Of a DNA stretch of 64,000 bases, positions 28,021-33,291 are shown piece by piece. Each line of letters opens with the position of its first letter. The first letter of the stretch is position 1. The translations under genes and the position numbers were made by a program. Source of the stretch: Chloroflexota bacterium (GTDB taxonomy: Bacteria; Chloroflexota; Anaerolineae; Aggregatilineales; Phototrophicaceae); contig JAPOVL010000033.1 of assembly GCA_026708115.1 (NCBI GenBank), forward strand, positions 62,001-126,000, written 5' to 3'. A model generated the notes under the pieces. It was not told the origin of the DNA, ran no database searches, and saw only the letters and a program-made list of their open reading frames with translations.

Positions 28021-28240
28021 ATTCTGTCGTCGTCCTCCGTTGCAACAGGACTGATAACGCCGTTTTCCGAATTATTACAATTTACATTACGAACTCGGTT
28101 TCTGCTTTTGTTAAATATATCACAATCTCATGGGGGTGTCAAAGTATAAACCTTTGTGGATTGGCTGGGAAATCTGGTCGAGGATGATACGGAAAATTAC
28201 GGTAAAATGTCGAAAATACCAACCATATCATGCAGGCAAC

Positions 28241-31200
28241 ATGGCACCCATCACCATCCAGCCTAACGACAGGCAGCTTAGAAAATACTACGATACACTT
28301 AGCGAACTGCGCGATGTCCCGCACGAAGGCGGCACGCGCCGCGCCTTCAGCGCCTTGCTCTCCGCCATGGCCAAGCGCCGCAAGCTCAAGCTCGTCGAAG
28401 AGCATTCGATCCAGGCGACAAACTCAACTCGTACCGTACGCCCCGATGGCGCGCTCATTGATGAATTCATGCGCCCTTTTGGCTTATGGGAAGCCAAAGA
28501 CAGCGCTGATAATCTCTACGTCGAAATCAACAAAAAGAAAGCCGCCGGCTACCCGCTCAAAAACATCATCTTTGAAGACACCGTCACCGCCGTTCTTTAC
28601 CAAGATGGCTACGAAGCGCGTCGAACGCGCATCCGCGAAAAGAAGAACTTCGCCGCCCTGCTCAGCCAATATCTCAGTTACCGAGCAGAATCCTTCGACA
28701 ACTTCAACGAAGCGGCCCAGAGCTACGGCGAGCAAATCCGCGAAATCGCCACCCAGCTCAAAGGCAAGATCGACGCTGCCCACCAGGACAATCCCGAATT
28801 CCAGCGCCAGTTCGACGAATTCATGGGGCTCTGCCGCCGTTCGCTCAATCCCAACATCAGCACCGAAGCCGTCGACGAAATGCTCATCCAGCACCTCATG
28901 ACCGAGCGCATCATCCGCCGCGTCTTTGATGTCGCGCAGTTTGCCCAGACCAATGTCATCGCCGCCAAGATCGAAGAAGTCATCCGCGCCCTCACCAGCC
29001 GCTATTTCAACCGCAGCGATTTTCTCGGCGCGCTCAATCAGTTCCACAAAGCCATTGAAGACGCCGCCGAAGACCTCGATTTCAGCGACAAGCAAACCTT
29101 CATCAACTCCGTCTACGAGAAGTTCTTTCAGGGCTACAGCGTCAAAGTCGCCGATACCCACGGCATCGTCTACACGCCCCAGGAAATCGTCGACTTCATG
29201 TGCGCCGCCGTCGAAGAAGTCCTCGCAACCGAGTTCGGCAAAAAGCTCGGCGACGAAGGCGTCGTCATCATTGACCCCGCCACTGGCACCGGCAACTTCG
29301 TCGTCAACCTGCTGCGCCGCGCCTACGGGCGCAACCTGCGCGAGTTCGAGAGCTTCTACCGCGAACGCCTCTTCGCCAACGAAGTCATGCTCATGCCTTA
29401 TTACATCGCCTCGCTCAATATCGAGCGCGAATACTACGAACTCACCGGCCGCGCCGCGCCCTTCGAGGGACTCTGCTTCGTCGACACCCTCGATCTGGCC
29501 CGCGAACGGCAAATGTCCTTTTTCAACGAAGCCAACACCGAGCGCGTCGAACGCCAGAAAGCCGCCGATATCAACGTCATCATCGGCAACCCGCCTTACA
29601 ACGTCGGCCAGGTCAACGAGAACGACAATAACAAGAATCGCAAATACGATGTCATCGACCGTCGCATCCGCGCGACCTACGCTAAAGACTCAAAAGCGAC
29701 CAACAAGAACGCCTTGAGCGATGTCTATGTCAAGTTTTTCCGTTGGGCGGTTGACAGGCTGGAAGATCGGCCCGGCATCGTCTGTTTTGTCAGCAATAAT
29801 AGCTTCGTCGATCAGTATGCCTTTGACGGCATGAGGAAACACCTGCTGCAAGATTTTGACAGAGTCTACCACTTGGACTTGCACGGCAATGTCCGCCAAA
29901 ATCCCAAAATCAGCGGCACGTCCCATAACGTCTTCGGCATTCAGGTGGGCGTCGGCATTACCGTCGCTGTTCGCTCCCAAGAAATCAAAGACCATAAGCT
30001 GCTCTATCACCGCCTCCCTGAATTCTGGCGCAAGGAAAACAAACTCGACTACCTCGCCGACAACGCTCCCCCTCCCTCTTTATGGGGGAGGGGGCCGGGG
30101 GGTGGGGGCATCGACTGGCAGCGCCTCGTCCCCAATACCAAACACACCTGGCGCCGCACCGACACCGAAGACGAATTCGCATCCTATCTCGCCATCGGCA
30201 GCAAAGAAGCCAAACGCACCAAGCGCGATCAAGCCGAAACGATTTTCAAGACCTATTCTGGCGGTGTAAAGACAAATCGTGACGTTTACGTTTATGATTT
30301 CCAGTTTGATGCGTTGGCTAAACGTATGCGGCGCTTTGTCGACGATTACAATAGCCAAGTCGACAAATACAAGCGACAAAATCCTAAGCCGAACATTGAT
30401 GACTTTGTCGACTACAGAATTGTTTCGTGGAGCCGTAATCTGAAGCTCGATTTGAAGCGCGGCAACTATTCAATCTACTCACGAGACAAAATCAGATGCA
30501 GTCTATATCGACCTTTCGCGAAGCGACATCTTTATCTTGACCGAATACTAAACGAGGAAGTGTATCAGCAGCCGATTTTCTTCCCAAACGAGCAATCCGA
30601 AGCGGAAAACCGACTAATGTGCGTTGCGTCGGTAGGCATTGAAAAGCCATTCTATTCGATACTCGTGAATACAATACCGAATCTTTCATTTGTTGGCTTT
30701 GGTGGTGGCTGCCAAACATTCCCCTTCTACACATACGACCAAGACGGCTCCAACCGCCGCGAAAACATCACCGACTGGGCCCTCGACCAATTCCGCGACC
30801 ACTACAACGACCCGGCCATTACAAAATGGGACATCTTCTACTACGTCTACGGCCTGCTCCACCATCCCGGCTACCGCCAACGCTACGCCCTCGATCTCAA
30901 GCGCAATCTGCCCAGAATCCCGTTCGCGCCAACCCGCACCAGCGAAAATGTAGGGGCGACCTATCAGGTCGCCCGAAAGTCCGAATCTCAATCCGAGGCG
31001 ACAAAGTCTCCCCCCATTGCAATGGGGGGAGATTTAGAGGGGGGTGGGGGGTTCTGGCCCTTCTCCCAAGCCGGACGCCAACTCGCCGACCTCCACCTCA
31101 ACTACGAATCAGTCGACCGCTACGGACTCGATTGGCATGCCGAGCGCAGTCCCATCAGTTACCGCGTCGAAAAGATGCTGCCCAAAGGCAAGGTCGACGC

Positions 31201-31507
31201 CGCCGACGGCAATTACAAGGTCTACAATACGCTCAAATACAACGACACCTTGACCTTGCACAACATCCCCGAACGCGCCTTCGCCTATCGCCTCGGCAAT
31301 CGCGCTGCCCTCGACTGGATCGTCGACCAATACCGTCTCAAAACCGACAAGCGCAGCGGCATCACCCATGACCCTAACGGCTACAGCGACGACCCGCAAT
31401 ATATCCTCAAACTCATCGAACGCGTCATCACCGTCAGCCTGCGCACCGTCGACATCGTCGAAAACCTCGCCAAACTCCCCTTCCGCGCCGACTCCGGTGA
31501 TGCCTAG
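28241..31507 (+). CDS. Nuclease-methyltransferase fusion restriction enzyme (Type IIG/ISP-like, no helicase)
   Basis: 1088 residues from ATG 28241. The frame opens at 28130, but the first 37 codons look non-coding. The N-terminal nuclease is PD-(D/E)xK-like: Pro-Asp at 68-69 and Glu84-Ala-Lys86 (GLWEAK). A helical linker follows, then an N6-adenine methyltransferase: YTPQEIVDFM, SAM motif IDPATGTGNF near 344 and catalytic NPPY near 449. The C-terminal half is the target-recognition region. No helicase motifs are seen, unlike full Type ISP enzymes. Three palindromic repeats interrupt the C-terminal half in frame (near residues 609, 903 and 922). DNA from about 30280 to 30730 looks lower in G+C than its flanks. 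It would methylate and cut DNA as one polypeptide. Confidence 0.82.
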   Translation: MAPITIQPNDRQLRKYYDTLSELRDVPHEGGTRRAFSALLSAMAKRRKLKLVEEHSIQATNSTRTVRPDGALIDEFMRPFGLWEAKDSADNLYVEINKKKAAGYPLKNIIFEDTVTAVLYQDGYEARRTRIREKKNFAALLSQYLSYRAESFDNFNEAAQSYGEQIREIATQLKGKIDAAHQDNPEFQRQFDEFMGLCRRSLNPNISTEAVDEMLIQHLMTERIIRRVFDVAQFAQTNVIAAKIEEVIRALTSRYFNRSDFLGALNQFHKAIEDAAEDLDFSDKQTFINSVYEKFFQGYSVKVADTHGIVYTPQEIVDFMCAAVEEVLATEFGKKLGDEGVVIIDPATGTGNFVVNLLRRAYGRNLREFESFYRERLFANEVMLMPYYIASLNIEREYYELTGRAAPFEGLCFVDTLDLARERQMSFFNEANTERVERQKAADINVIIGNPPYNVGQVNENDNNKNRKYDVIDRRIRATYAKDSKATNKNALSDVYVKFFRWAVDRLEDRPGIVCFVSNNSFVDQYAFDGMRKHLLQDFDRVYHLDLHGNVRQNPKISGTSHNVFGIQVGVGITVAVRSQEIKDHKLLYHRLPEFWRKENKLDYLADNAPPPSLWGRGPGGGGIDWQRLVPNTKHTWRRTDTEDEFASYLAIGSKEAKRTKRDQAETIFKTYSGGVKTNRDVYVYDFQFDALAKRMRRFVDDYNSQVDKYKRQNPKPNIDDFVDYRIVSWSRNLKLDLKRGNYSIYSRDKIRCSLYRPFAKRHLYLDRILNEEVYQQPIFFPNEQSEAENRLMCVASVGIEKPFYSILVNTIPNLSFVGFGGGCQTFPFYTYDQDGSNRRENITDWALDQFRDHYNDPAITKWDIFYYVYGLLHHPGYRQRYALDLKRNLPRIPFAPTRTSENVGATYQVARKSESQSEATKSPPIAMGGDLEGGGGFWPFSQAGRQLADLHLNYESVDRYGLDWHAERSPISYRVEKMLPKGKVDAADGNYKVYNTLKYNDTLTLHNIPERAFAYRLGNRAALDWIVDQYRLKTDKRSGITHDPNGYSDDPQYILKLIERVITVSLRTVDIVENLAKLPFRADSGDA
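30068..30108. repeat. G/C-rich palindromic element inside the restriction gene (element P1)
   Basis: CCCCCTCC, a short A/T-rich centre and GGGGGAGGGGG, followed by a G-rich tail to about 30108. It is translated in frame as PPPSLWGRGPGGGG. The composition and palindrome are foreign to the surrounding coding sequence, so it looks like an inserted repeat that kept the frame. It resembles the palindromes at 31007 and 31532. Confidence 0.7.
30950..30975. repeat. 26-bp palindromic repeat inside the restriction gene
   Basis: GTAGGGGCGACCTATCAGGT followed by CGCCCG, with stem GGGCGACC/GGTCGCCC and loop TATCA. It is identical in all 26 bases to the intergenic copies at 32322 and 33259. Here it is translated in frame as VGATYQVAR. 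Confidence 0.85.
31007..31050. repeat. Perfect 26-bp G/C palindrome with G-rich tail inside the restriction gene (element P2)
   Basis: A perfect 13-bp inverted repeat, TCTCCCCCCATTG and CAATGGGGGGAGA (31007-31032), followed by a tail of G runs to about 31050. It is translated in frame as SPPIAMGGDLEGGGG. It lies 31 bases after the 26-bp repeat at 30950, so both may have arrived as one composite. Confidence 0.78.
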
Positions 31508-31525: not shown

Positions 31526-31573
31526 AAAAAGCCCCTCTCCCCTTGTGGGAGAGGGGTTTGGGGTGAGGGGGCA
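31526..31573 (+). terminator. Palindromic element P3, likely also the terminator of the restriction gene
   Basis: A perfect 10-bp stem, CCCCTCTCCC (31532-31541) and GGGAGAGGGG (31547-31556), loop CTTGT, preceded by AAAAAA and followed by TTTGGGG. It begins 19 bases after the restriction gene stop. It belongs to the same G/C-palindrome style as the two elements inside the gene, so it is both a repeat and a plausible transcription terminator. Confidence 0.6.
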
Positions 31574-31763: not shown

Positions 31764-31988
31764 ATGGAAGCCAACCCACCACAAGACGCCGTCGGACGAT
31801 CCAACAGCGAGCGCATCACGGCGATCGAAGCAACCTTGCCTCATTTGGCGACAAGAGCGGATATCGCGAACATCAGAACCGATATTGAGAGCTTGCGATC
31901 CGAAATAACGACTATGCGCTGGCTGATTGTGGTCGCCATCGCTGTGACTGGCATCCTTGTGCAATACCTCAATCAAGGCGGAGCTTGA
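31764..31988 (+). CDS. Small coiled-coil membrane protein (paralog 1)
   Basis: 74 residues. A polar N-terminus with SERITAIEATLPHLATRADI is followed by a heptad-like coil (IANIRTDIESLRSEITTMRW) and one C-terminal membrane helix (WLIVVAIAVTGILVQYL). The pattern is like DUF1640/XhlA-type small proteins, which is a resemblance only. GGAG precedes the ATG by nine bases. The next gene starts one base after its stop and is a paralog. It lies downstream of the restriction gene. Confidence 0.65.
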   Translation: MEANPPQDAVGRSNSERITAIEATLPHLATRADIANIRTDIESLRSEITTMRWLIVVAIAVTGILVQYLNQGGA

Positions 31989-31989
31989 A

Positions 31990-32208
31990 GTGGCAATTCA
32001 AGCTGCGACTGAACAAGCGCAGATTGAATCCAATCAGGCAGGGCGGTCTAGCAGCGAGCGTATTACAGCCATCGAAGCGACCTTGCCCCGTCTCGCAACC
32101 AAAGCCGATTTGGAGCGCCATACCAGGCTCCGCATCATGTGGCTCGCCGGCGCACAGTTCGCCCGCTTCGCCGCCTTGTCAGCCCTGCTTTTGCATTTCC
32201 TGGGCTAA
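31990..32208 (+). CDS. Small coiled-coil membrane protein (paralog 2, GTG start)
   Basis: 72 residues from a GTG at 31990, one base after the preceding stop. It shares SSERITAIEATLPRLATKAD with paralog 1, then diverges. Its C-terminal hydrophobic segment (LAGAQFARFAALSALLLHFL) is less regular. Tandem duplication and coupling suggest a hetero-oligomer, which is inference. An ATG at 31957 is in frame but lies inside the upstream gene. Confidence 0.58.
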   Translation: MAIQAATEQAQIESNQAGRSSSERITAIEATLPRLATKADLERHTRLRIMWLAGAQFARFAALSALLLHFLG

Positions 32209-32211
32209 TGA

Positions 32212-32410
32212 ACCCAAGCCGAAGACGACTAGATCCTATCCTTCGCGACCTTCGCGCCTTTGTGGTGAAAAAACCTCAGTAGGACCAACAAAGTCATGAA
32301 GCTCAAACTTATAAGTCACCCGTAGGGGCGACCTATCAGGTCGCCCGCAAAACGGTCTTCTCCCTTGGTTTTTCTCTGTGCCCTCCGCGCCTCTGTGGCC
32401 AATCCACACA
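32212..32410 (+). repeat. Composite dispersed repeat, copy 2, with 26-bp palindrome
   Basis: It begins with AAGCCGAAGACGACTAGATC and continues through CTTCGCGCC-type low complexity and TCAGTAGGACCAAC. It includes the 26-bp palindrome at 32322-32347 and ends in a second TGTGCC/CTCTGTGG stretch. The TCAGTAGGACCAAC-to-palindrome part aligns with 33211-33291. Confidence 0.65.
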
Positions 32411-33130: not shown

Positions 33131-33291
33131 TTCAGCGACTAAAACCTTGTCCTTCGCGCCTTGACGGTCAGCGTCGCCGGTCAAATTCTTCGCGACCGCT
33201 AGTGCAAAAATCTCAGTAAGACCAACTAAATTATGCAACTCCAAAATAAAAGTCGGCGGTAGGGGCGACCTATCAGGTCGCCCGAAAATCG
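33131..33291 (+). repeat. Composite dispersed repeat, degraded copy 3, with 26-bp palindrome
   Basis: CTCAGTAAGACCAACTAAAT at 33210 aligns with CTCAGTAGGACCAACAAAGT at 32276. The alignment runs with interruptions to the identical 26-bp palindrome at 33259-33284. The part before it shares the CCTTCGCGCCTT phrase but is more diverged. Confidence 0.6.

Follow-up and report, generated by a model that had tools for sequence, protein, structure and literature searches.

In-frame palindromes in a Chloroflexota restriction-methylation gene and a candidate class of mobile elements encoding DUF559 nucleases

The host gene and its inserts

The stretch of DNA analyzed here, hereafter the window, comprises 64,000 nucleotides of contig JAPOVL010000033.1 from a Chloroflexota bacterium (GCA_026708115.1), and its subject is a gene for a Type ISP/IIG restriction-methylation enzyme that contains three palindromes at two sites, a and b (Table 1). 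The gene comprises 1125 codons from its first possible start, from which residues are numbered here, or 1088 from the ATG at 28241 preferred by the gene caller. The reading frame is uninterrupted across all three palindromes. A preliminary description of this DNA had placed three palindromes at these positions within an open restriction gene of a probable Chloroflexota genome, and the open reading frame (ORF), the Pfam and PADLOC assignments and the origin of the genome agreed with it; its residue numbers fit the start at 28241 and differ from those of Table 1. The ratio of nonsynonymous to synonymous substitutions (dN/dS) against homologs of the same genus was 0.15–0.29, which indicates that the host protein is under purifying selection despite the inserts.

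Table 1. Host gene, inserts and neighboring palindromes (window positions; REP, repetitive extragenic palindrome)
Feature	Position	Strand	Evidence
Type ISP/IIG restriction-methylation gene, host of the palindromes	28130..31507	+	Pfam ISP_coupler, N6_Mtase, Eco57I, Type_ISP_C; PADLOC REase_MTase_IIG
Palindrome 1 with G-rich tail, site a; putative solo DUF559-element end, read as APPPSLWGRGPGGGG	30065..30109	+	43/44 match to DUF559-element end; absent from homologs
Whole site b insert, 117 bp = 39 codons, residues 936-974	30935..31051	+	Absent from empty-site homologs
Palindrome 2, GTAG-tagged REP (GTAGGGGCGACCTATCAGGTCGCCC), read as VGATYQVA	30950..30974	+	99 exact genomic copies; covarying stems; also in G123
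Palindrome 3 with tail, site b; putative solo end of another DUF559-element subfamily, read as SPPIAMGGDLEGGGG	31004..31051	+	42/44 match
Intergenic palindrome of the DUF559-end type, directly after the host gene	31530..31572	+	
Intergenic GTAG REP, same 25 bases as palindrome 2	32322..32346	+	
Intergenic GTAG REP, same 25 bases as palindrome 2	33259..33283	+	

The residues added by the palindromes had been expected to be absent from homologs, and the alignment showed gaps at both sites. At site a, a short variable linker was found in the homologs in place of APPPSLWGRGPGGG. At site b, the motif LPRIPFAP of the relatives is followed directly by DF, and the window protein has its extra residues between them. 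The solved relatives DrdV (7LO5), LlaGI (5FFJ) and LlaBIII (4XQK) also lack the insert, the alignment breaking at query residue 934 and resuming near 978.

The occupancy of site b was compared by the distance from the conserved LPRIPFAP to the next conserved motif, which is 72 bp in four genomes with an empty site (G104, G119, G115 and G141; G, C and L numbers are our handles for genomes, contigs and loci) and 189 bp in the window. In the same genus, the site holds one solo palindrome in G121 (123 bp), the same GTAG-tagged REP as the window and nothing else in G123 (132 bp), a palindrome pair without a nuclease gene in G126 (180 bp) and, in G106 (543 bp), a complete element consisting of a palindrome, a DUF559 nuclease and a second palindrome. 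Every length difference within the genus at this site is a multiple of 3 bp. Further site b inserts were present in more distant homologs (G088, G093 and G141), a GTAG palindrome was detected at site a in G047, and complete in-frame DUF559 inserts were found in seven homologs, five at site a (G008, G049, G136, G026 and G088) and two at site b (G106 and G141). Insertion at these two permissive sites is thus recurrent. The site b insert of L055 (G040) is a short tandem repeat (GLTTNDLGLTTND..) with no palindrome.

Additionally, the host gene was compared with its counterpart L073 in G106 (window 30088-30934 for the middle part). The identity was 86% before residue 662, 63% over residues 654-935 and 88% after residue 960, and because of this drop between the insertion sites the specificity region looks as if it had been swapped. 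In nine sister loci (L062-L068, L071 and L075, in G129, G111, G110, G123, G109, G119, G120, G115 and G100) a break near residue 617 leaves the gene as two ORFs, 290-1580 bp apart. The gap contains small membrane-type ORFs (..SNSERITAIEA.LPHLATKADLERHTRLLIMW..) together with repeated copies of the end NVFGIQVGVGITLAIR, and the same small-ORF family also occurs downstream of the intact window gene (window 31764-32210).

Two families of palindromes

Judged by their sequences, the three palindromes belong to two unrelated families: the middle one is a GTAG REP, and the two outer ones are ends of DUF559 elements. In the middle palindrome a GTAG tetranucleotide adjoins a short imperfect palindrome. 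An exact search of the 4.83 Mb genome gave 99 copies of GTAGGGGCGACC..GGTCGCCC and none of the reversed control, and GGGGCGACCNNNNNGGTCGCCC, allowing up to 3 mismatches, gave 13 matches in the window against 0.42 expected from shuffles. The stems of these REPs show compensating changes among 45 copies. In a sample of 1.29 Mb (27% of the genome), with genes predicted by a simple codon-usage caller, 42 of the 45 copies were intergenic and three lay in predicted genes, though 86-90% of the sample was coding.

The outer palindromes are built differently, from a C-rich arm, a G-rich arm and a G-rich tail. A pattern of this type (CCCTC..GAGGG..GGGTG) gave 79 listed hits in the genome, about 70 of them distinct, and no hit in the control; a stricter first pattern for the type of palindrome 1 had retrieved only 3 copies. 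Five of the 21 sampled copies lay in predicted genes, two of these in the window restriction gene itself. Palindrome 1 is nearly identical to the end of the DUF559 element of G106:C12, and palindrome 3 to a palindrome beside the DUF559 gene of G104 (L203), as scored in Table 1. The genome of the window contains one free DUF559 gene, which also lies amid palindromes of the outer type.

The preliminary description had proposed that the palindromes are repetitive, with coding and intergenic copies, and that two intergenic copies match one of those in the gene. Both families are indeed repetitive, and the intergenic copies agree over 25 bases; the in-frame copies are real, but the counts given above make them exceptions.

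No Y1 transposase was detected at E 1e-8 in 33 of the 34 genomes of the genus, one outlier genome being the exception. The single weak Y1 match of the window's own genome (E 4e-5, in a 642-codon frame) was rejected as a REP-associated tyrosine transposase (RAYT) for the GTAG REP, as no palindromes were noticed in its flanks and it has no genus-wide support. GTAG REPs were likewise rejected as DUF559-element ends, since they do not match the DUF559 flanks in sequence. The stretches 32265-32354 and 33202-33291, which contain the two intergenic GTAG REPs, have about 90 bp in common at 81% identity, and therefore the repeated unit extends beyond the REP itself. Near contig ends, GTAG REPs are spaced 107 bp (or 214 bp) apart (G000:C21:113-351, C11:53-184 and C49:429515-429967), a spacing that suggests long tandem arrays at which the assembly broke.

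DUF559 elements: structure, hosts and movement

The DUF559 elements have the layout tail-hairpin-DUF559 nuclease-hairpin-tail, in which the two ends are inverted copies of each other; the exact ends are approximate, as few empty-site pairs were available. The inverted pairing of the flanks exceeded the 99th percentile of mismatched pairs in 16 of the 46 loci of the order, under a null that is severe because all ends share a consensus, and in none of 44 when windows 700 bp away were used. The same layout was observed in named genomes of three phyla at a score of at least 15, slightly under the 95th percentile of mismatched pairs (16.5): 11 of 17 in Chloroflexota, 9 of 12 in Cyanobacteria and 20 of 36 in Bacteroidota.

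These data bear on an alternative in which all three palindromes would be ordinary repeats like REPs or miniature inverted-repeat transposable elements (MITEs), comparable to those of Rickettsia. Their transposase would be unrelated or extinct, and the DUF559 genes nearby would be coincidental passengers. It describes the GTAG REP exactly, which matches no DUF559 flank, and most copies of both families in the genome are intergenic solos. However, it accounts neither for the near identity of palindromes 1 and 3 to DUF559-element ends nor for end pairs that match each other in the same element and are not seen at a distance of 700 bp, and distant phyla show the layout again although their end sequences differ; this explanation is considered unlikely.

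The structural model of the DUF559 protein (predicted local distance difference test score, pLDDT, 91) matched 3HRL and I-Bth0305I (3R3P), a homing endonuclease; its match to Vsr was weaker. The match to 3R3P (template modeling score, TM, 0.70; profile E 2.7e-4) points to an EDxHD/Vsr-type fold, and D46, E57, D59 and H63, residues of catalytic type, do not vary among 36 DUF559 copies, both free and inserted. An IS200/IS605 element, with a Y1 HUH transposase between hairpin ends, was rejected on the basis of this fold.

By hand count, 38 DUF559 matches in the order lie within open frames of at least 450 codons. The hosts of in-frame elements included homologs of the window restriction enzyme, other DNA methyltransferases, HsdR, PriA, PurL, a glutamate-synthase-like reductase, the isoleucyl- and leucyl-tRNA synthetases (IleRS and LeuRS) and MetH. 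In the cases scanned, the Pfam domain of the host, or the next one, resumes beyond the insert (tRNA-synt_1, 2-318 and 326-413; Met_synt_B12, 1-98 and 90-273; MmeI_Mtase, 12-92 and 139-256; Pyr_redox_2, 2-126 and 142-291). In-frame elements are also carried by the isolates Flavobacterium sp. I-STPP5a (metH) and Spirulina sp. CS-785/01 (methyltransferase). In three Pedobacter genomes (L281, L293 and L295), DUF559 with palindromic ends is joined in frame immediately upstream of hisF.

Many of these hosts are DNA methyltransferases or restriction enzymes, as would be expected if DUF559 had a function of its own within restriction-methylation enzymes, be it as a supplementary nuclease or as a Vsr-like repair domain, with the palindromes as linkers of that architecture. 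By contrast, hosts such as IleRS, MetH and PurL, and likewise LeuRS, PriA and the glutamate-synthase-like reductase, argue against DUF559 as part of a restriction system; moreover, most homologs lack DUF559, its position differs between copies, and the copies at site a have five separate origins. A functional domain of this kind is accordingly held to be very improbable. Even less probable are inteins or introns, which would be excised from the protein or the transcript. A homing-type nuclease that sits in frame in a conserved essential gene does recall an intein, but the inserts consist of palindrome peptides and about 110 DUF559 residues, with no protein-splicing domain recognized in them (no dedicated intein model was run and intron models were not searched), and at 17-20 codons the solo palindromes are much too small.

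Movement of the elements was examined in the Flavobacterium metH gene. Two genomes carry an element at site 1 and a third lacks it; of the two carriers, one has an empty site 2. One of these genes (L303) contains two in-frame DUF559 elements (153-602 and 1407-1856), each of exactly 450 bp, which are 84% identical to each other and 77-79% identical to the element of the other species. Empty and occupied alleles were thus found both at site b and in metH, and the positions of insertion vary. A tree of 104 DUF559 domains scatters the five copies from site a of the restriction gene over five separate places, and one clade with 98% support spans three unrelated host genes, a statement that relies only on the supported forks. 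The empty and occupied sites in close relatives, together with the nuclease tree, indicate that the elements are mobile.

The free DUF559 copies were also considered as gene breakers and rejected as such: in seven of the nine loci with both neighbors called, the flanking genes are on opposite strands and are hence not halves of one gene (no systematic search for out-of-frame insertions was made). This location, mostly between genes of opposite strands, is as expected if disruptive insertions are lost.

Proposed mechanism and comparison with known systems

The explanation that best joins these results, and which we regard as probable as a whole, is that palindromic DUF559 elements are mobile, in-frame settlers in host genes. 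Palindromes 1 and 3 would be solo ends, that is, non-autonomous or remnant copies of such elements, and the middle palindrome a separate, older insertion of a GTAG REP, common to one sister species (G123). The host gene would be a working restriction-methylation enzyme, two permissive linkers of which have been struck repeatedly by two kinds of palindromic mobile DNA. The DUF559 protein, an endonuclease of the Vsr/I-Bth0305I (EDxHD-type) fold, would cut DNA, with the hairpin ends probably as its guide, and the element would be copied to the new place by repair. Copies would survive in genes if they add a whole number of codons, contain no stops and fall in a tolerant loop, the frame being explained by selection and not by target choice. 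Nothing would be spliced out of the host product, and the nuclease or the short palindrome peptide would thereby join the host protein; the DUF559 domain probably stays there, because no splicing domain is present. The data show the anatomy of the elements, their recurrence, their retention in frame and their movement between hosts; catalysis, choice of target, fate of the fused domain and mobilization by DUF559 are inferred.

Several points weigh against this explanation. Something other than DUF559 could move the palindromes, with the nuclease as a passenger. The window has solo ends only, and its genome a single DUF559 gene. In about a quarter of the 46 tested loci the ends do not form a clear pair, and some of the pairs are direct and not inverted repeats. 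Inspection by eye of two sites, site b of G106 and metH, showed no target-site duplication. The tree was built from 113 columns for 104 rows and most of its forks are weak, and many of the host genes come from metagenome assemblies.

A broader proposal, favored with less assurance, is that DUF559 nucleases with palindromic ends form an undescribed, phylum-spanning class of mobile elements, which insert in frame in coding genes, are expressed unspliced within the host protein and leave behind protein-compatible palindromes. It would also explain the common CCCTCACCCC..CCCCTCTCCC..GGGAGAGGGG repeats of many bacterial genomes. In the literature covered, which left preprints and most subscription papers outside the search, no link between DUF559 and palindromes and no account of the element were found, and the element is apparently undescribed.

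The main known forms of selfish DNA within coding sequence are inteins, which splice, and the palindromes of Rickettsia. The palindromes settled in frame here can be linked to one particular nuclease family, and how protein-coding palindromes arise and spread thereby becomes a testable question. If the proposal is true, aminoacyl-tRNA synthetases, methionine synthase and restriction enzymes of ordinary bacteria would moreover contain an entire foreign nuclease domain, and a widespread orphan repeat would gain a partner enzyme.

Among known systems, GTAG-tagged REPs have been reported inside genes of many species, with Chloroflexi among their phyla (PMC3733652). The middle palindrome resembles them in its tag, its short imperfect palindrome, its high copy number and its mainly intergenic location, and a GTAG REP in a gene is of an already known kind; it differs from them in that the cognate RAYT, common but not required, was missing from 33 of the 34 genomes of the genus at the threshold given above.

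The Rickettsia palindromic elements (RPEs), with which the preliminary description had drawn a parallel, are likewise palindromic repeats kept in frame in many unrelated genes. That parallel stands for the in-frame insertion of repetitive palindromes but is incomplete, since two unrelated families are involved here and the comparison with RPEs missed the link to a nuclease. RPEs have been described without a nuclease gene, and none that mobilizes them is named in the literature examined, whereas two of the palindromes here are ends of putative nuclease-encoding elements; the phyla also differ. MITEs are similar in being short non-autonomous copies with inverted ends, like the end pair without a nuclease in G126, but differ by the target-site duplication, not seen here, and by the presumed partner, which is a Vsr-fold nuclease and not a DDE transposase.

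Further likenesses are found among homing-type enzymes. I-Bth0305I (3R3P) has the same nuclease fold as DUF559. The ShiLan insertion in a phage methylase is open in frame, with an HNH enzyme hidden in another frame and no palindromes mentioned (PMC11855218). As in the elements described here, a nuclease-coding insertion that lacks a splicing domain continues the open frame of a methylase, and ShiLan is a phage precedent for the unspliced in-frame insertion of a nuclease. Unlike ShiLan, the present elements carry a DUF559 enzyme in the host's own frame, have inverted palindromic ends and occur in many kinds of host.
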